Source: Luminiphilus sp.
GTDB taxonomy: Bacteria > Pseudomonadota > Gammaproteobacteria > Pseudomonadales > Halieaceae
Direction: 5' to 3'
Assembly (NCBI GenBank): GCA_029242325.1
Contig: JAQWUD010000010.1
Span: 141,379-205,378, forward strand
Length of the DNA: 64,000 nt
Each line of letters opens with the position of its first letter. Position 1 is the stretch's first letter. Positions 3,195 to 12,024 of the stretch are shown in pieces. The notes below the pieces were generated by a model, which did no database searches, was not told where the DNA came from, and worked only from the letters and a program-made list of their open reading frames with translations. A program made the translations under genes and the position numbers.

Positions 3195-3222
3195 TTGACC
3201 TGATACCCATAGGGGGTATAAA
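3195..3222 (+). promoter_or_regulatory. sigma-70 promoter of the csoR operon
   Basis: TTGACC (3195-3200) and TATAAA (3217-3222) are separated by 16 bases. The first CsoR-type palindrome fills the spacer, which is the expected position for repression. A perfect TATAAT (3233-3238) lies further downstream but has no good -35 partner. Confidence 0.6.
3203..3219. promoter_or_regulatory. CsoR-type operator 1
   Basis: ATACCCATAGGGGGTAT is a 17-base inverted repeat of the ATACCC-GGGTAT type bound by CsoR/RcnR-family repressors. It sits between the -35 and -10 elements of the regulator's own promoter. Confidence 0.72.
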
Positions 3223-3236
3223 TTAAACGCTCTATA

Positions 3237-3253
3237 ATACCCCTGTGGGGTAT
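3237..3253. promoter_or_regulatory. CsoR-type operator 2
   Basis: ATACCCCTGTGGGGTAT has perfect 7-base arms around a 3-base centre and is the better of the two copies. It covers the possible GTG start at 3245, which favours the downstream ATG (3266) as the true csoR start. The two site centres are 34 bases apart. Confidence 0.75.
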
Positions 3254-3265
3254 GAGGTGCGGGCA

Positions 3266-3541
3266 ATGAGAGAGAAAACCCAGCGAAAAGCTGATGCCAG
3301 ATTGGCCAGAATCGAGGGTCAAATTCGCGCTGTGCGCAAAATGGTAGCGGCCGATCGCTATTGCATTGACGTCGTCAGGCAAGTGCAGGCGGCGCGTTCC
3401 GCCCTGAGCAGTCTCGAGACCCTCATTATCGATGATCACGTTGATACGTGCGTAGAGCACGCTCTAGAGGGAGGAGCGATGAGCGAGCGCAGGGAAAAGG
3501 TAACCGAGCTGGTCTCTATTCTCACGGGCCGAAAAAAGTGA
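3266..3541 (+). CDS. csoR: CsoR/FrmR-family metal-sensing transcriptional repressor
   Basis: A 91-residue all-helical DUF156 protein. Counting from the ATG at 3266, Cys33, His58 and Cys62 reproduce the Cys-x24-His-x3-Cys spacing of the Cu(I)-sensing CsoR triad. The nickel/cobalt sensor RcnR has His at the last position, and FrmR lacks this set. Family knowledge says metal binding releases the repressor from DNA. It is the first gene of an apparent operon, its stop overlaps the next start (GTGA), and two matching operators lie just upstream. GAGGTG at 3254-3259 is the ribosome site. Copper is the likely signal, but another soft metal cannot be excluded. Confidence 0.88.
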   Translation: MREKTQRKADARLARIEGQIRAVRKMVAADRYCIDVVRQVQAARSALSSLETLIIDDHVDTCVEHALEGGAMSERREKVTELVSILTGRKK

Positions 3542-4185
3542 GATTAGCGCTGGTTGTTGCGTTAGTCACCGCTACCTCGATCAGCAGTCTTAAAGCATGG
3601 TCAAGACCTGTTTCGTATGCCGGTGGCTGGACAATTATTGAAGAGTCAGACCGCCAGGCCAGCTCAGCTCTGATCCATTACACACCCTCGCCCAATTGGT
3701 CTGCGGGTATCAGAACCGAAGTCAACCGCGACGCGGATTACGCAATCTATAGCATTCACCCGACCTTTTTGGCCAAGCGCTGGTTCGGCGCGGACTATCA
3801 GGGCAATTTTTATATTCACGGTGGCGCGGGAGTTGCCACAGGAATCAATGACAACCCTCTTGGAGACGAGCTAGCTACTTATGGCGGCGTAATGGCCGAC
3901 TGGGAAACACGGACGCTCTTCATAGGTTATCGCAATCGTTACCTGAACTCGGGACATTTTGGTGATCAATTCATGCAAGCAGTCAGAGCGGGATTTGCCC
4001 CCTACAAGGGCGACAGTGGCGATTTGCACACATGGTTAATGCTGGAAATTGATCATCGCCCCAAGGATGGCGAACCAATGACTGCAACGCCATTAATTCG
4101 CCTGTTCAAAGGCCCCCTCCTATTGGAGGCCGGCTATAACCTCACCGTGAACCAACCCCTCTTTAACTTTACCTACCGCTTTTGA
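3538..4185 (+). CDS. secreted beta-rich (probably outer-membrane) protein of the metal operon
   Basis: I do not recognise a named family. The GTG at 3538 overlaps the csoR stop and begins a 215-residue protein with a signal peptide (about residues 1-18). What follows is rich in alternating aromatic/polar segments, such as repeated short strands with Tyr, Trp and Phe. It ends in Tyr-Arg-Phe, the terminal aromatic typical of outer-membrane beta-barrels. A longer reading frame from 3448 overlaps csoR and lacks a signal peptide at its start, so it is rejected as the true start. By operon position it probably takes part in metal handling at the outer membrane. Confidence 0.6.
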   Translation: MRLALVVALVTATSISSLKAWSRPVSYAGGWTIIEESDRQASSALIHYTPSPNWSAGIRTEVNRDADYAIYSIHPTFLAKRWFGADYQGNFYIHGGAGVATGINDNPLGDELATYGGVMADWETRTLFIGYRNRYLNSGHFGDQFMQAVRAGFAPYKGDSGDLHTWLMLEIDHRPKDGEPMTATPLIRLFKGPLLLEAGYNLTVNQPLFNFTYRF

Positions 4186-4201
4186 ACAGGAGGCAAGCAC
4201 C

Positions 4202-4723
4202 ATGCACCTACCGATATTGATGAGTTTTTTGGTGAATGTCGCCGCAATATTCAGCGTGACAGCGAACGCTCAGGAACACCCTGATCATAATCATCATGCT
4301 GAACATCAGCATACGATGGGCGTCGACCCGACTCAGGCTCAGCCCGCAGAGCAAAACCATGACAATGACGACGAATCACTCGACACCCATTCAGCAGCGC
4401 CCGCGTCGAAAACAACCGCCAATACAGCGGCCCTCACACGAACCGAGGACATTGATACCGCACTATCAGCGGGTGGAGAGCCCATCGTTGCCGATGTATT
4501 GGGCGTGGTTTGCGACTTCTGCGCTCTCGCCATGAATAAAATCTTCAGCAAAAGAGGTGAAGTCGCAGCGATTTATGTCGATCTAGATACCAAAACGCTT
4601 AATCTCGTACTGATCCCCGGTGCCACACTCAGTGACGGGCGTATTGCCGAGTTAGCCATTCAGGCGGGCTATCGGGTTGCCGGTATTCGGCGTGGCACTG
4701 AGGCGCTGGGTAGGACATCGTGA
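4202..4723 (+). CDS. periplasmic His-rich protein with HMA-like CxxC domain
   Basis: 173 residues. A signal peptide ends about residue 23 (ANA-Q). A His/Asp-rich segment follows (residues 25-63, including HNHHAEHQH), then an Ala/Thr linker, then a ferredoxin-like heavy-metal-associated domain (about 93-158). In the domain the metal site reads GVVCDFC (Cys104, Cys107) instead of the usual GMTCxxC. The rest of the domain keeps the HMA pattern, with a strand of alternating hydrophobics after the first helix. It is likely a soluble periplasmic metal binder or chaperone, analogous to MerP. AGGAGG lies just before the ATG. Its stop overlaps the next gene's GTG start. Confidence 0.75.
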   Translation: MHLPILMSFLVNVAAIFSVTANAQEHPDHNHHAEHQHTMGVDPTQAQPAEQNHDNDDESLDTHSAAPASKTTANTAALTRTEDIDTALSAGGEPIVADVLGVVCDFCALAMNKIFSKRGEVAAIYVDLDTKTLNLVLIPGATLSDGRIAELAIQAGYRVAGIRRGTEALGRTS

Positions 4724-5100
4724 AAGGTGACTGGCGGGACAGCGTCGTACCCACACTGGCGCTATTCGGTAGCGCCTCCACCTTACTGTGCTGTGCGCTT
4801 CCCGCGTTACTGATTTCTATTGGCGCCGGCGCTGTGATGGCCGGCCTCACCTCGGCGATACCCGGTATCATTTGGCTGTCCACTCACAAAGACATACTAT
4901 TCCTGCTATCTGGATTGATGATGGTCGCAAGCACGGGGCTATGGTGGCAGCAGCGCAACGCGCCCTGCCCAGTTGACCCCATCAAGGCGGCTGCCTGCAC
5001 ACGCCTCCGCCAAATCAACAAGTGGCTACTCTCTTCGGCCTGGCTCGCCTACATTTGCGGTATATTCTTTGCCTACCTTTGGGCGCGCCTTTTTTACTAG
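4720..5100 (+). CDS. MerT-like inner-membrane metal transport protein
   Basis: 126 residues with about three membrane spans (residues 12-43, 57-75 and 103-124). The first span has a vicinal pair Cys24-Cys25 in STLLCCALPALL, and the loop after span 2 has Cys83 and Cys93. Mercuric transporter MerT has this same plan: a Cys pair in span 1, a Cys pair in the cytoplasmic loop, and three spans. It is coupled to the preceding periplasmic HMA-like protein by a GTGA overlap, as MerP accompanies MerT. With a CsoR-type regulator instead of MerR, and no mercuric reductase nearby, the metal may be copper. Direction of transport is unknown. It meets the PepSY gene tail-to-tail with a 4-base overlap. Confidence 0.7.
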   Translation: MKGDWRDSVVPTLALFGSASTLLCCALPALLISIGAGAVMAGLTSAIPGIIWLSTHKDILFLLSGLMMVASTGLWWQQRNAPCPVDPIKAAACTRLRQINKWLLSSAWLAYICGIFFAYLWARLFY

Positions 5101-5780
5101 CCGGACCCTATCCGTCGAGTCTCACGATACAACCAGAGCCCCAAGATCGCGGTCAGTAATGCCATGACAGAGAAAATCTTCAGCAACCACGTGCCGATGG
5201 TATCGCGGTCTTCGTAGCTCATAATATGCAGGGACCACAGGAAGTCCCACCAGCGCCAGGCGCTGTGCCTTACCGCTATAACGTCTCCTGAGACCGCATC
5301 GATGTAAGCCACTTTCTCGGGACGGGTCGATTCCCACACCTTCCAAAGAGGTAGCGGCCCGCCACGAAATTCGCTGCCGGATACTTCAGACTCGATCCAC
5401 TCGGCTCGATCTGGCTTCAACACCGTGCGGGCGGTGGCGAGGGCTATCGCGTCGCCTTGTGTCAAGAACGCCAGCGGGTCACCCTGAACATCTCGCCACA
5501 CAACACCTTCTCGGGTCTGCACGCCAACAATAACCTCTCCAGGTAGGCGCCCCTGCATGCTGATACCAACCGCCAATTCATCCACACGTTGAAGGACTGA
5601 CAGGTCAAATGAGATCACTTCCGGCGCGACTCGGTACTGATGTCCCCGGACGTAGTCAATGTCTACGAAAGCAAAGTAAATACCGCTGATCGTCCACAGC
5701 AGCAGTTGCACCGAAGTAAGCATGGCAACAGCCCGATGCCATCGCCTGAGGCGTCGCTGCCACGACAGAGAAGACGCCAT
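5097..5780 (-). CDS. PepSY-domain membrane protein
   Basis: 227 residues with an N-terminal span (about 17-40, preceded by a basic WQRRLRRWHR stretch), a large periplasmic part and a C-terminal span (about 196-217). The periplasmic part has a PepSY-like segment ending in a conserved VAYIDAVSGDVIAV strand. The WWDFLWSLHIMSYEDRD region before the last span is typical of single-module PepSY-TM proteins found with metal or haem uptake and ferric-reductase genes. Function is not established. It is convergent with the metal operon, so any shared role is inference from position only. Confidence 0.75.
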   Translation of the reverse strand: MASSLSWQRRLRRWHRAVAMLTSVQLLLWTISGIYFAFVDIDYVRGHQYRVAPEVISFDLSVLQRVDELAVGISMQGRLPGEVIVGVQTREGVVWRDVQGDPLAFLTQGDAIALATARTVLKPDRAEWIESEVSGSEFRGGPLPLWKVWESTRPEKVAYIDAVSGDVIAVRHSAWRWWDFLWSLHIMSYEDRDTIGTWLLKIFSVMALLTAILGLWLYRETRRIGSG

Positions 5781-6591: not shown

Positions 6592-7833
6592 CTAGAAACG
6601 ACTGACCTTGACGGGCAGGTGCGTGAACCCGCGAATAAACAGATTGCACGTCCGCTTGGGCTCACCGGCCAGTTCTATCGTTTTAAAGCGTAAAAGGGCT
6701 TCTTCCCACAAGATACGGAGCTGCATTTCTGCCAGACGATTCCCCATACATCGGTGAATGCCAGCGCCAAAAGACAGATGGCTTCTGACATTCGGGCGGT
6801 CAATCCAAAAATCATTCGGTCGCTCGATGACGGTCTCGTCGTAGTTTCCCGACACGTACCAAAGCACCACTTTTTCCCCTTTGCGAATCGCTTGGCCATT
6901 AAGCTCGACATTGCGGGTCGCTGTTCGCCGCATGTGCGGCAAGGGCGTTTGGAAACGGATAATTTCAGAGACCATGGAAGGAATGAGCTCTGGATTGCGA
7001 CGCACCTTGGCCATTTGTTCCGGGAACTGATTGAGAAACACTATGCCGCCGGACATGGAGTTTCTCGTTGTGTCATTGCCGCCTACGATGAGCAGCATGA
7101 TGTTTCCCATGTAGGTCAGTGGATCGTCCACCATATTCGCGGTATTCGGATCGGCCTGCAGCATTCTTATAAGATCAAAGGCTTGCTTGCCGTCATCTTT
7201 CCGCTCGTGCCAGAGCTCGGTAAAACGTTGCAGACACGCTGTCATATGCTCAACAATCACCTCACGCGGAACACCCTCACCCGCAGTGATTCTCTCATCA
7301 TTGGTAAACATATCAGACCACTGGGTCAGGTTGTTGCGCTCCTCCCACGGATAATCAAACAACGTAGCTAGCATTTTGGTGGTCAAATCGCGGCTCACCA
7401 GCTTGACCCAATCAAACGGCTCGTCCTCCGGCAAGGCATCAAGCACCTCGGCAGTGCGCGTCCGTATTAGCGATTCGAACTCTGTCAAATTGCGTGGTGC
7501 AACGACGTGGTGGACCGCCCGCCTCTGGTCATCGTGCTCTGGGGGATCCATCGCAATAAACATCTTGAGGATCATATCGGGCTCTGGATCGAGAATGGCG
7601 ATGGACGGCTCTGACGAAAACGTGTCGGTATCGCGCTCGATCGCGACGATATCCTCGTACCGAGATACTGACCAGAAGGGACCCGCGGGACTGTCTGATT
7701 GAAAATGCACCGGTGAATCCACTCGCAATCGAGTGAACAAATCGTGCCAGTAATCGTGCTCGAACATCCGCGGATCCGAGACATCAAGGTCCTTGACTTC
7801 CATTTCACGATAGTTGGGCTTGGGGACGGTCAC
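6592..7833 (-). CDS. cytochrome P450, CYP153-type alkane hydroxylase
   Basis: 413 residues, complete. The I-helix oxygen-binding motif is GGNDTTRNSMSGG (251-263), the ExxR pair is Glu290/Arg293, and the haem loop FGAGIHRCMGNRLAE places the thiolate at Cys362. The GGNDTTRNS motif and RCMGNRLAEMQ are characteristic of CYP153 enzymes, soluble omega-hydroxylases of medium-chain alkanes and fatty acids. GTG at 7833 is preceded by AGGA at good spacing. The electron donor is very likely the ferredoxin encoded 65 bases upstream. A ferredoxin reductase, normally the third component, is not in the cluster. Confidence 0.93.
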   Translation of the reverse strand: MTVPKPNYREMEVKDLDVSDPRMFEHDYWHDLFTRLRVDSPVHFQSDSPAGPFWSVSRYEDIVAIERDTDTFSSEPSIAILDPEPDMILKMFIAMDPPEHDDQRRAVHHVVAPRNLTEFESLIRTRTAEVLDALPEDEPFDWVKLVSRDLTTKMLATLFDYPWEERNNLTQWSDMFTNDERITAGEGVPREVIVEHMTACLQRFTELWHERKDDGKQAFDLIRMLQADPNTANMVDDPLTYMGNIMLLIVGGNDTTRNSMSGGIVFLNQFPEQMAKVRRNPELIPSMVSEIIRFQTPLPHMRRTATRNVELNGQAIRKGEKVVLWYVSGNYDETVIERPNDFWIDRPNVRSHLSFGAGIHRCMGNRLAEMQLRILWEEALLRFKTIELAGEPKRTCNLFIRGFTHLPVKVSRF

Positions 7834-7898
7834 GGGAGCATTCCTAAAATCATCTTATTCAACAACTTATGATCACCATCTAAAATAAAACCTGAATG

Positions 7899-8213
7899 CT
7901 ACATCTGAAACTCTGGCAGCCTTACCGTGATATCCGCCATCCCGTCCGAGACCATAATCTGACAGCCCAAACGGGAATTACTGGCGCGATCCGGCCGCAG
8001 GCCAAGCATCGCCGTCTCCTGCGAGTCCGGCGCGGGTAAATCGCCTGAGATTTCGACAAAGCAATGACAAGTGCCACAAATTGCGCCGCCACCGCAGTCC
8101 GCATCAATACCGGGTATGTCGTGCTTAAGAGCGGTCTCCATCAACGAGAGCCCAACGTCACCGTCGACCATGCGCTCTGAGCCATCGTGCTGTATGAATG
8201 TGATCACTGTCAT
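7899..8213 (-). CDS. [2Fe-2S] ferredoxin, putidaredoxin type
   Basis: 104 residues with cluster ligands Cys40, Cys46, Cys49 and Cys84 (CGGGAICGTC then Cys after 34 residues). This is the spacing of putidaredoxin/adrenodoxin-like ferredoxins that serve P450s. It lies directly upstream of the CYP153 gene on the same strand and should deliver electrons to it from an NADH-dependent reductase encoded elsewhere. An ATG start and full-length domain make it an intact gene. Confidence 0.93.
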   Translation of the reverse strand: MTVITFIQHDGSERMVDGDVGLSLMETALKHDIPGIDADCGGGAICGTCHCFVEISGDLPAPDSQETAMLGLRPDRASNSRLGCQIMVSDGMADITVRLPEFQM

Positions 8214-8290
8214 GCCCTACTGTTTCCTTTTCTTTGTTTCCAAGAGTATCTACCTGAGCCGCGCCTCCAAGGACAGCCACAGACGCTATA

Positions 8291-9469
8291 TTACCCCGCA
8301 ACAGCCTGATCAGCCTCAAACGCCTCATGAAAAGCGGCAAGTGTGCTTTGCTCATGACTTTGTGCTTCAGAGGTATCCAATGGTCTCTCGAGCTTAACCC
8401 AGTCTATATCGCCGTCGTCCGACATCGTCTCATATTCCAGAATCCCGAGCTCCTCGAATCGCGGCCGAATGCTGTCGGTCAGGAGTCCAATTCTCCGCAG
8501 ATTCGGCACCACTCTCTGGAATAACAAATTGCGGAAAGTAGACATCACAAAACCGTCGAGCACCTTCCGTCGACTCTCCTCCACATCCCAACCAAAATGT
8601 CGGAATACATCCGTTGCCACCAGCCGCTCTCGACTGATCGCGCAGGCCTCAAAAGCAAATACTGCCCGCTCCTCACGTTCCTCCTGGGTGAGTGTCTTGA
8701 CGTACTCTTCCAGATAATTCACGCCAAAGGTGACGTGCCGTGCCTCGTCCCGCGTCACCAGATACACGATATCCTTCAATACTGGGTCCGGAGTGGTCTC
8801 CCGTGTGGTATTGAAGGCTGAAAGCGCCAGTCCTTCGATCACGATCTGCATCCCAATGAATTTGAGGTCCCACCTTGGATCGGTGAGTATTTTGTCGATG
8901 ATGCTTTGGAGGTGCCTGTTGATTGGGTACATAAGCCCAATCCGCTTCTGAATGTACTGATTGAACACCTCCACGTGCCTTGCCTCATCAAAGGTCTGCG
9001 AGGCGGCATAGAGCTTGGCATTGAAGGTAGGGGCGCAAGAGCACAACTGACTGGCCACCAGCAGCGCGCCCTGCTCACCATGCAGAAACTGTGACAGCGA
9101 CCAGGCGTTCATATGCAACCAAAATTCGTCACGCTCCTTATCTGACAGTGCCAGGTAAGGGGGGTAGTCATGCAGATTCATGAGCTCCGCCTGTCGCTCT
9201 TCCTCGGGCCAGGGCCGCTCCCAGTCGATATCCATCTGGGGGTCCCAGTTAAGCTGCTTGCCCAGTTCATAGAGCTTTTTAATGCGATCGTCCTGCACTG
9301 AATAGTCCCAGTTATAAGAACCGGTCAGCGGTGTCTGGAAGATTTGAGCAACATGATTGACATCGGCGCTGGTCAGCACATCCTCCAGATCAGGGTTAGC
9401 CGAGGGGTAATCCGCATTGGCGAAATGCTGGATTTTTCTGGGGGTTTCTTCGGTCCACGCAATTTTCAT
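8291..9469 (-). CDS. di-iron ferritin-like (R2-like) oxidase/oxygenase
   Basis: 392 residues. Two helix-pair motifs provide a full six-ligand carboxylate di-iron site: Glu132 (HGEQGA), Glu162/His165 (DEARH), Glu212 (IEGLAL) and Glu242/His245 (RDEARH). This places it in the ferritin-like/ribonucleotide-reductase-R2-like superfamily, near the AurF-like and 'ferritin-like domain' oxygenases. It is not an iron-storage ferritin, being much too long. The substrate is unknown. It is first in a same-strand run with the ferredoxin and CYP153, so it may draw electrons from the same ferredoxin or act on the same alkane-derived substrate. It is divergent from an AraC-family regulator. Confidence 0.82.
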   Translation of the reverse strand: MKIAWTEETPRKIQHFANADYPSANPDLEDVLTSADVNHVAQIFQTPLTGSYNWDYSVQDDRIKKLYELGKQLNWDPQMDIDWERPWPEEERQAELMNLHDYPPYLALSDKERDEFWLHMNAWSLSQFLHGEQGALLVASQLCSCAPTFNAKLYAASQTFDEARHVEVFNQYIQKRIGLMYPINRHLQSIIDKILTDPRWDLKFIGMQIVIEGLALSAFNTTRETTPDPVLKDIVYLVTRDEARHVTFGVNYLEEYVKTLTQEEREERAVFAFEACAISRERLVATDVFRHFGWDVEESRRKVLDGFVMSTFRNLLFQRVVPNLRRIGLLTDSIRPRFEELGILEYETMSDDGDIDWVKLERPLDTSEAQSHEQSTLAAFHEAFEADQAVAG

Positions 9470-9483
9470 GGGTCACACTCACT

Positions 9484-9501
9484 TGATGTCTTCTGACATC
9501 A
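9484..9501. promoter_or_regulatory. palindrome in divergent CYP153-cluster/araC region
   Basis: TGATGTCTTCTGACATCA has perfect 7-base arms and a 4-base centre. It begins 15 bases upstream of the di-iron gene start and may be an operator for that promoter. Confidence 0.5.
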
Positions 9502-9514
9502 TCCTACTAGGATG
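9500..9514. promoter_or_regulatory. second abutting palindrome
   Basis: CATCCTACTAGGATG has perfect 7-base arms around one base and abuts the previous palindrome (they share two bases). Together they form a 31-base symmetric block between the divergent genes. Confidence 0.45.
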
Positions 9515-9571
9515 CTCAGGACTCAAGGTGATAGCTTGCCAAATAAAGGTCATTTATGGCCAAATGTGCCG

Positions 9572-10603
9572 ATGGAAGCCTCAATTCCCAGTCAGTACCT
9601 CCTCGTTCTCATCGGACTTACCACTGCTCAGGGACACGCTATCGCTTCGCTCTGCGAGGGCACCAAAGTCACCCTGGAAACCTTAAGCACTCAGGGAGCC
9701 CGCGTGGACGCTGATGAGGCCGATCAGATCATCGCTAACGCACTCAGGGTCACCGGGGATCCGGCACTGGGCCTGGCGGTAGGACAGCAACTCAATCTGG
9801 GCGCCCACGCGGTGGTAGGACAAACTCTGATGGCTTGCTCAGATCCGAACGACGCATTGGAGACGCTGGTGCGATATGGCGCCCTTCTGACTGGCAGCCA
9901 GGCTGCACTTTCACGCTTCTCTGACACCAGCAACGATCGTGCCGGCCTGATACTGTCAGTTAACCTCGGCGCACAATCAGTACGCTTCTTTCATGAAGTG
10001 ATTTTTTCAGCAGCACAAAAGACGCTGTCAGATCTGCTGCAAAACCCGATCACGGACCTGCAGGTCGCATTTCCGTACGATCCCCCATGCGATACCACGC
10101 CGTTTATCCGGATATTCGGCGAACAGGTGGGATTCAACGCAGAGGACGCCCTTTTCAGTTGCCCCGGATCGCTCATGCGCCGCCGACTTCCGACTTCCAA
10201 CGAAACGTTGAGAGCGCTGTATGACGCAGAGTGCGCAAGATTACTGAGCGATCTCTCCGATACAGCAGGGTATAGTGACCGCACCCTAACAGCGCTGAAC
10301 AGGCTGCAAGGACAATACCCCCGGCTTGATCAGATGGCAGCCATGCTAAACCTCAGCACGCGCACCTATCGAAGGCGCCTGCAGCAGGAGCACACCACCT
10401 TTAGGGTGCTACTCGACAGAGTTCGCCTTAAACGCGCAAAACAGCTTTTGCTCAAAGGCACACTCTCCGTAGACACAATTGCGCTGTCGCTGGGATTCAC
10501 GGATACGTCGAATTTTCGGCGTGCATTTATAAAATGGAGCGGTGAATCTCCTGTGCAATGGCGGCGCCGCGGAACAAGCTCATCCAAGCCATCGATGGAC
10601 TAG
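9572..10603 (+). CDS. AraC-family transcriptional regulator
   Basis: 343 residues from the ATG at 9572. The N-terminal two-thirds is an arabinose-binding-like sensor domain (PF12625 type, opening with SQYLLVLIGL), and the last 100 residues are the double helix-turn-helix. The second HTH reads LSVDTIALSLGFTDTSNFRRAFIKWSG in pattern (positions about 300-326), with the canonical FRRAFxxWxGxSP signature. Regulators of this class control alkane, ester and sterol catabolism in several proteobacteria. Its divergent placement makes it the likely activator of the CYP153 cluster. An upstream ATG at 9512 lies inside a palindrome and is less likely to be the start. Its stop overlaps the GST gene stop. 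Confidence 0.87.
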   Translation: MEASIPSQYLLVLIGLTTAQGHAIASLCEGTKVTLETLSTQGARVDADEADQIIANALRVTGDPALGLAVGQQLNLGAHAVVGQTLMACSDPNDALETLVRYGALLTGSQAALSRFSDTSNDRAGLILSVNLGAQSVRFFHEVIFSAAQKTLSDLLQNPITDLQVAFPYDPPCDTTPFIRIFGEQVGFNAEDALFSCPGSLMRRRLPTSNETLRALYDAECARLLSDLSDTAGYSDRTLTALNRLQGQYPRLDQMAAMLNLSTRTYRRRLQQEHTTFRVLLDRVRLKRAKQLLLKGTLSVDTIALSLGFTDTSNFRRAFIKWSGESPVQWRRRGTSSSKPSMD

Positions 10604-11649: not shown

Positions 11650-12024
11650 TTACTTCTTTTTGGCTGCCTTCTTCTTTGCGGGAGCCTTCTTCTTTGCGGG
11701 AGCCTTCTTCTTTGCTGCTACCTTCTTCTTGGCAGGAGCCTTTTTCTTAGCTGCTGCCTTCTTCTTGGCAGGAGCCTTCTTCTTAGCTGCTGCCTTCTTC
11801 TTGGCAGGAGCCTTCTTCTTAGCCGCTGCCTTCTTCTTGGCAGGAGCCTTCTTCTTAGCCGCTGCCTTCTTCTTGGCAGGAGCCTTCTTCTTCGCTGCTG
11901 CCTTCTTCTTGGCAGGAGCCTTCTTCTTCGCTGCTGCCTTCTTCTTGGCAGGAGCCTTTTTCTTAGCTGCTACTTTTTTCTTAGCAGCGGGTTTCTTTTT
12001 TGTTGCTTTCTTCGCAGCGGCCAT
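11650..12024 (-). CDS. histone H1-like Lys/Ala-repeat DNA-binding protein (AlgP type)
   Basis: 124 residues made almost entirely of Lys, Ala and Pro. After MAAAKKATKKK come seven 12-residue units of KKKAPAKKKAAA pattern and two shorter KKKAPA units. Such proteins resemble the C-terminal tail of eukaryotic histone H1 and Pseudomonas AlgP. They bind DNA through charge and are thought to affect chromosome packing and transcription. There is no folded domain. AGGAGGG lies at good distance before the ATG. The gene has its own terminator. The repeat number is likely to vary between strains. Confidence 0.88.
   Translation of the reverse strand: MAAAKKATKKKPAAKKKVAAKKKAPAKKKAAAKKKAPAKKKAAAKKKAPAKKKAAAKKKAPAKKKAAAKKKAPAKKKAAAKKKAPAKKKAAAKKKAPAKKKVAAKKKAPAKKKAPAKKKAAKKK
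11713..11964. repeat. 36-base coding tandem repeat, seven units
   Basis: Seven consecutive 36-base units encode the KKKAPAKKKAAA repeats of the H1-like protein. The units differ at only a few third positions, which suggests recent expansion or recombination. They are in frame, so changes in copy number would keep the gene open. Confidence 0.85.

Follow-up and report, generated by a model that had tools for sequence, protein, structure and literature searches.

Within a 64,000-nucleotide stretch of a Luminiphilus genome (contig JAQWUD010000010.1 of the 2.76-Mb assembly GCA_029242325.1), which we call the window, four genes lie on the same strand at positions 3195-5100. They encode the regulator CsoR, a predicted outer-membrane protein (OMP), a protein of the HMA type, and a small MerT-like membrane protein. 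We read this operon as a response to copper excess that would detoxify the metal by a net outward route. As a whole, we hold this reading with slightly more belief than doubt.

The operon has the order csoR-OMP-HMA-MerT-like and carries two perfect operators, and its proteins keep conserved residues in their relatives. The same three envelope genes (the cassette) occur elsewhere beside other regulators. Textbook copper pumps are mostly not found in the well-assembled Luminiphilus genomes that carry the cassette.

The csoR operon and its two operators

The first gene, csoR (3266-3541, forward strand, 91 aa), starts at ATG 3266, as in its relatives. Its product matches Pfam PF02583 with 87.4 bits, well over the cut-off of 22.8. 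The residues C33, H58, and C62 (numbered from that ATG) are invariant in all 10 aligned proteins, the window's included. Likewise, the best solved-structure matches of the CsoR profile are the CsoRs 4m1p and 4adz, with the triad aligned. A preliminary description of this DNA had named a CsoR with a Cys-His-Cys copper triad, and these results uphold it.

The promoter spans 3195-3222 of the forward strand and encloses operator 1. It consists of a -35 element TTGACC (3195-3200) and a putative -10 element TATAAA (3217-3222), separated by a spacer of 16 bp. We placed the -10 element after the consensus of the aligned Luminiphilus promoters, in which operator 1 stands between TTGACT and TATACT. A mechanical promoter scan chose TAAATT (3219-3224) instead, two bases later. 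A site between the -35 and -10 elements is the right place for a repressor.

Operator 1 (3203-3219, ATACCCATAGGGGGTAT) and operator 2 (3237-3253, ATACCCCTGTGGGGTAT; 34 bp downstream of the first) carry no strand assignment. Both are perfect copies of ATACCC-N5-GGGTAT, and they are the only zero-mismatch sites in the 64-kb window. The chance figure of the operator scan, a mean of 1.03 sites, belongs to sites with up to two mismatches and not to perfect ones. A pattern with the shorter spacer, ATACCC-N4-GGGTAT, was discarded; its spacer is wrong and it misses both sites. An in-frame GTG at 3245, upstream of the csoR start, falls inside operator 2.

We aligned 13 usable Luminiphilus promoter stretches, chosen by hand (a 14th row is all N). 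All the columns conserved at 90% or more (21 of 21) lie inside the two operators. Perfect, alone in the window, and holding every conserved promoter column, the sites confirm the operator pair of the preliminary description. A TACC..GGTA-type operator is present, then, at csoR's own promoter. Among other Luminiphilus loci, a single site was found in L049, L058, and L069, and none in L091, in the stretch searched.

The three envelope genes follow csoR on the forward strand. The OMP gene (3538-4185, 215 aa) begins with a GTG that overlaps the csoR stop. The gene for the HMA-type protein (4202-4723, 173 aa) has an ATG start. Finally, the gene for the MerT-like inner-membrane protein (4720-5100, 126 aa) has a GTG start that overlaps the HMA stop.

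The envelope proteins and the spread of the cassette

The OMP, the HMA-type protein, and the MerT-like protein of the window receive no name from Pfam or NCBIfam. Weak profile matches of operon proteins to DUF7477, Ploopntkinase3, DUF4079, and DmeF were taken as chance.

The OMP is predicted to be a 12-stranded outer-membrane beta-barrel with a signal peptide. Its model shows a signal helix and 12 strands (mean pLDDT 93.4, pTM 0.80). The fold matches are general barrels, the best of them autotransporter domains and the KdgM type; PcoB (7pge) appears at rank 29 (Z 11.3, rmsd 4.2 over 161 residues). Because these matches are many unrelated barrels, they give the OMP no function or family. Pfam CopB (PF05275) matches neither the window's OMP (E <=1) nor any of the 64 aligned OMPs (E <=0.1). 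In the same set, some proteins match BBP2 (7/64) or PagL (5/64). A search of PDB sequences with the OMP returned nothing.

The MerT-like protein was modelled with medium confidence (pLDDT 78.9, pTM 0.58). In this model, C24-C25 lie in the first helix, C83 in the loop after helix 57-79, and C93 at the start of the last modelled helix. The CC pair and the C-x9-C are kept in 46 of 46 aligned MerT-like proteins; the fetched MerTs show C-x5-C. The fold search with the model gave no match at E <=0.001, and the PDB sequence search gave only weak matches to cytochrome oxidase subunit 3 (best E 0.029). Pfam MerT (PF02411) has no match in the window protein at E <=1, nor in its genome (G000). Four of the 46 aligned proteins match it at E <=0.1, the best at 0.0022.

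We compared the family with 19 fetched MerTs; a 20th, L168, is not in this set. The hhalign score was 92.7%, with CC on CC, and 20 column shuffles reached at most 1.0, but the reversed alignment scored 84.3. For this reason, the hhalign result speaks neither for nor against MerT family membership. With a profile of the fetched MerTs, hmmsearch found 21 of the 46 proteins at E <=0.1 vs 2 reversed rows, and CC lay on CC in the two alignments viewed. Judging from the sequences, the protein appears to work like MerT and is perhaps distant kin to it. We do not file it as MerT.

The HMA-type protein looks secreted, with an N-terminus that resembles a signal peptide by eye. Its metal motif is CDFC (C104-C107), preceded by nine histidines. 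In the preliminary description, CDFC stood in place of the usual CxxC. This does not hold, since CDFC is itself a CxxC and the commonest form: all 55 aligned relatives have the motif, as CDFC (41), CAFC (9), CSFC (4), or CDLC (1). Pfam PF00403 (HMA) does not match the window protein at E <=1; 51 of the 55 aligned relatives match at E <=0.1. The profile of these relatives matches CopZ, CopA, and MerP chains.

The number of histidines before the CxxC has a median of 2 among the 55 HMA proteins. The ten richest in them belong, without exception, to cassettes headed by CsoR: those of L053, L054, L058, L069, L082, L088, L091, L107, L113, and the window. This favours a periplasmic buffer, in which the His-rich HMA protein would bind copper, and the MerT-like protein and the barrel would load, anchor, or release it, with no net transport across the envelope. 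However, seven other CsoR-bearing loci (L072, L074, L075, L080, L081, L083, and L094) fall outside this ten, and the median is low. The four cysteines kept in all 46 MerT-like proteins also speak against a mere store of copper. We consider such a buffer unlikely.

The cassette is not restricted to Luminiphilus. A search seeded with aligned MerT-like proteins gave 459 relatives in genome contigs, and we fetched the best 80, chosen by their MerT-like likeness. These loci span Alpha-, Beta-, and Gammaproteobacteria, Bdellovibrionota, and one record of Dadabacteria. Taxa with cassette loci include Luminiphilus, other Halieaceae, Kordiimonas, Eilatimonas, Parvularcula, Hellea, Burkholderiales, and Nitrosomonadaceae. 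By the rule of our script, 65 of the 80 loci have the strict order OMP-HMA-MerT on one strand.

The remaining 15 loci comprise nine that fail by the spacing rule (L078, L084, L087, L091, L092, L098, L105, L106, and L109; not individually checked) and six without a detected OMP. Four of these six (L047, L064, L068, and L112) start at a contig end. The other two (L072:3665-5669 and L075:3717-5662) have a different barrel (Pfam Phenol_MetA_deg, PF13557) between HMA and MerT, followed by CsoR. So, the cassette seems to call for an outer-membrane part of one family or another. The extra surface protein of the preliminary description therefore stands as an outer-membrane part. It is not extra, being a predicted 12-stranded barrel and a member of a widespread cassette. 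The division into outer-membrane, periplasmic, and inner-membrane parts is likewise supported.

Within the window's order, the cassette is rare. Among 293 sampled genomes, which include that of the window, the OMP was found in 4 and the HMA protein in 5. Two genomes from a different family of this order have csoR last and not first, and a TACC..GGTA site is still at the OMP start. In the cassette tree, the window and two other rows of the Luminiphilus group fall into a group of ten with full support; alphaproteobacteria make up its seven remaining rows. On this basis, the tree suggests a transfer of the cassette between classes. A plasmid search gave nine records, and the full annotated trio is in none of the three regions examined.

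Regulators beside the cassette and the copper inventory

We counted operators in 80 loci: the OMP-bearing loci of the fetched 80, together with L025, L026, L028, L033, and the window. A site was defined as TACC-N4..9-GGTA between 900 bases ahead of the OMP start and 60 bases into the gene. It is present in 31 of 35 CsoR-bearing loci vs 3 of 45 without CsoR (Fisher p 1.7e-14, a value that overstates the difference because the loci are related and not independent).

Other regulators take the place beside the cassette in other loci. CueR, over its curated cut-off, is found in L086 and L089; in L086, a CopA-type ATPase adjoins them. Such an ATPase also stands in L085, directly after MerT. CueR is the best match in L076, below the cut-off, and L066 has a MerR-type gene that is not assignable.

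Of the 57 non-Luminiphilus loci, 32 have a further candidate control: a Cys-rich leader open reading frame (ORF) that ends in PP, directly in front of the OMP. The 80 loci hold 1393 ORFs of 80-180 aa in total; 44 of these, leaders included, pass the same motif rule. The features of the CutF and CruR copper leaders described in three papers (PMC9973294, PMC9426467, PMC8456105) match these ORFs. We dropped the name DUF2946 for them, as this Pfam family matched none of 25 leaders at E <=0.1. Since that test failed, CutF-like refers here to features only. The 25 Cys-rich, PP-ending leaders unmatched by DUF2946 come from loci between L051 and L110, and they could form a new CutF-like group.

The regulators have been exchanged repeatedly along the tree. 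We used 43 loci with all three proteins and a quick tree method, entered the regulator labels by hand, and counted gains or losses as changes. The CsoR label needs at least five changes, all forced by starred branches, and 10 are needed for the three labels taken together. With shuffled labels, counts this low came up in 1 of 500 and 0 of 200 cases.

Three copper-type controls thus adjoin the same trio: CsoR with its operator, CueR, and the CutF-like leaders. For this reason, copper is the most likely metal. The preliminary description had offered copper or another soft metal; copper now comes first, and the other metals are kept as a minor rival. A mercury-style detoxification of silver or mercury would agree with the distant likeness to MerT, and CueR reportedly answers to silver and gold as well (PMC10141476). 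However, the eight genes tested within the operon and beside it are MFS, 4HBT, CsoR, OMP, HMA, MerT-like, PepSY_TM, and DUF429, with neither MerR nor MerA (MerA was not searched elsewhere in the genome). In addition, the CsoR carries the Cys-His-Cys triad of copper sensors, and the regulators that replace it in other loci seem to be of the copper type. Another metal is, in our judgement, highly improbable.

We then consider the copper inventory of 57 Luminiphilus genomes. The HMA gene, standing for the cassette, is found in 34 and CsoR in 37, one copy each. Both occur in 33 genomes, the cassette only in 1, CsoR only in 4, and neither in 19 (p 2.5e-10; the genomes are not independent). Some of the 33 carry CsoR and the cassette on different contigs. 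The cassette of the cassette-only genome lies at a contig end. Three of the four CsoR-only genomes are cut by contig ends, with an OMP stub following in two. In the fourth (G056, locus L146), the cassette was not found, and CsoR has a copper-resistance multicopper oxidase and CopB as neighbours.

The Cu-ATPase model TIGR01511 exceeds 200 bits in 9 of the 57 genomes, or 4 of the 34 with the cassette (controls 14/14). One match was examined, that of HTCC2080 (G003). It is located in an apparent cco oxidase-assembly cluster, with gene names read by eye, and because of these neighbours the ATPase looks CcoI-like.

Many Luminiphilus genomes are incomplete, and single absences are weak. The argument is therefore carried by the main inventory, ten cassette genomes that are at least 90% complete. 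A P-type ATPase (PF00122) is present in one of them (G003), and none was found in the other nine (controls 14/14). Multicopper oxidases (PF07732) were found in 0 of the 10 (controls 8/14), and a heavy-metal RND system over the cut-off in one (G019; controls 3/14). COX2 is present in nine. The window's genome shows no P-type ATPase by PF00122, and TIGR01511 gives only a partial match of 19.7 bits. The lack of such an ATPase, first remarked for the operon, extends in this search to the whole G000 assembly.

These organisms are copper users that have CsoR and show few or no textbook removal routes. So, the cassette is the best recognisable candidate. It is probably the main recognisable copper-excess system of the cassette-bearing Luminiphilus.

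Direction of transport, neighbouring genes and known systems

Without surplus Cu(I), CsoR would sit on both operators, in the promoter spacer and just downstream of it, and would block transcription, as the layout and the protein family indicate. Cytosolic Cu(I) bound at C33-H58-C62 would release CsoR, by analogy with what is known for the family. The coupled genes would then be made: the MerT-like protein with its four conserved cysteines, the presumably secreted HMA protein with its CxxC and His-rich tail, and the 12-stranded barrel. Most likely, this trio would remove Cu(I) from the cytosol, the periplasm, or both, and pass it on or bind it in the outward direction. The MerT-like protein is the only inner-membrane protein of the operon, and most genomes show no other dedicated pump; to be useful, the response must therefore bring free copper down. 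What we infer is the metal, the response to it, and most of all the outward direction.

On the other hand, the trio could work as a copper importer of the MerP/MerT kind. The barrel would admit copper, the HMA protein would catch Cu(I), and the MerT-like protein would carry it into the cytosol to supply cuproenzymes. In agreement with this, all 46 aligned MerT-like proteins have the four MerT-like cysteines, and all 55 aligned relatives of the HMA partner have the CxxC. Copper is also needed, with COX2 in nine of the ten good genomes.

Several points weigh against an outward route, and some of them favour the importer directly. The MerT of the mercury operon moves metal inward, which is the main argument for the opposite direction. 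By the title of one paper, CsoR is reportedly linked to the uptake gene ycnJ in Bacillus subtilis. Neither an ATPase nor any other source of energy is part of the cassette, and an export route would have to depend on a gradient or a sink. The OMP alignment has no invariant or near-invariant cysteine or methionine beyond the start methionine; thus, nothing marks this protein as a copper binder. The CutF-like leaders can act either way. CutF favours its target with copper (PMC9973294, PMC9426467). A TonB-dependent transporter is under the control of CruR, a DUF2946-type leader ORF, which shuts it off with copper (PMC9426467).

The inventory adds to these points. RND matches below the heavy-metal cut-off turn up in all 57 Luminiphilus genomes, and such pumps could act on copper. 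The inventory did not cover CopC/CopD, metallothioneins, CDF pumps, and others. Three genomes that are 93-100% complete (G007, G026, and G042) show neither the cassette, CsoR, a Cu-ATPase, nor a heavy-metal RND over the cut-off; so, Luminiphilus can live without all four. Finally, a Cu-ATPase over the cut-off is present in 31 of the 50 genomes behind the other fetched loci (one of these, L078, from Halieaceae), that is, in 5 of 13 with CsoR and in 26 of 37 others. The cassette is thus not generally a substitute for CopA.

What tips the balance between the two directions is the signal. CsoR and CueR are described as sensors of surplus Cu(I) in the cytosol that activate efflux (PMC7558416). An importer would feed its own inducer, since cytosolic copper would switch on the genes that bring it in. 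Moreover, no P-type ATPase was found in nine of the ten good genomes to remove the imported copper. For these reasons, we favour detoxification or export over import. The import or buffering for cuproenzymes that the preliminary description proposed is not supported, and an importer seems to us improbable.

The detoxification reading can be taken further. The MerT-like protein may be an ATP-independent exit for Cu(I) that works with the HMA carrier and the barrel, replacing CopA, CueO, and CusCBA in Luminiphilus. The trio may then be a general efflux module, repeatedly rewired to CsoR, CueR, and CutF-like control. We offer this extension tentatively, as possible and open to considerable doubt.

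The operon ends against a convergent gene for a PepSY_TM protein (5097-5780, reverse strand). This gene is beside the cassette in 20 of 20 loci examined, the window's own included. The residues His15 and His185 are invariant in 17 of 17 full-length proteins. In HTCC2080, the gene has the same direction as the cassette and follows a histidine kinase. The protein is a possible partner of the cassette, and our guess is a metal reductase. Farther along the window, at 6592-10603, we read by eye a cluster with a cytochrome P450, a ferredoxin, a 392-aa protein, and an AraC-type regulator. At 11650-12024 (reverse strand), there is a very repetitive Lys/Ala/Pro protein with AAKKKAPAKKK repeats, histone-H1-like by eye.

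Compared with known systems, the operon resembles the CsoR-controlled copZA/copA efflux operons in its C-H-C CsoR, its ATACCC..GGGTAT-type operators, its HMA protein, and its expected induction by Cu(I). Unlike them, it has no P-type ATPase (nor was one found in nine of the ten good cassette genomes), it adds a MerT-like protein and an outer-membrane barrel, and its HMA protein looks secreted. With MerP/MerT it shares a probably secreted CxxC HMA protein and a small membrane protein whose first helix has the CC pair and which carries two more cysteines. It differs in the missing Pfam MerT match, the C-x9-C spacing, the control by CsoR and not MerR, the lack of an adjoining MerA, and the outer-membrane partner.

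The CutF/CruR (DUF2946-type) leaders are comparable to the Cys-rich, PP-ending ORFs that immediately precede the OMP gene in 32 of the 57 loci outside Luminiphilus. However, 0 of 25 leaders match DUF2946, the window has CsoR instead, and the published descriptions, as far as their text is available, do not name the cassette as a downstream neighbour. PcoB/CopB is also an outer-membrane barrel in a copper operon. Nevertheless, Pfam CopB has no match here, and autotransporter and KdgM-type barrels fit the OMP model better; a shared fold is not a shared family.

NCBIfam NF045683, described as a MerT/CopZ fusion-like heavy metal transport selenoprotein, combines a MerT-like part with HMA, and the window's HMA protein touches its C-terminal part very weakly (E 0.068). 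It is a fusion protein, unlike the cassette. The fusion-like protein of a Vibrio plasmid adjoins a GDCCVxC protein, and the annotation there names neither CsoR nor a barrel. This locus (L130:5736-6668, Vibrio diabolicus) shows the GDCCVxC (seleno)protein next to a heavy metal-associated protein whose start matches the MerT-like family, and it looks like a MerT-HMA fusion.

A literature search that left most subscription journals outside its reach, with sources available in part, gave no recognisable description of the OMP-HMA-MerT trio. The parts are of known kinds. Their combination, their spread, and their control by several copper sensors look new.

Textbook copper tolerance in bacteria consists of CopA-type ATPases, multicopper oxidases, and Cus pumps. 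These are mostly not found in the good genomes of a marine genus that keeps this trio. If the reading is true, MerT-like proteins would have a role outside mercury. It would also give a name to the widespread hypothetical genes behind CutF-like copper leaders.

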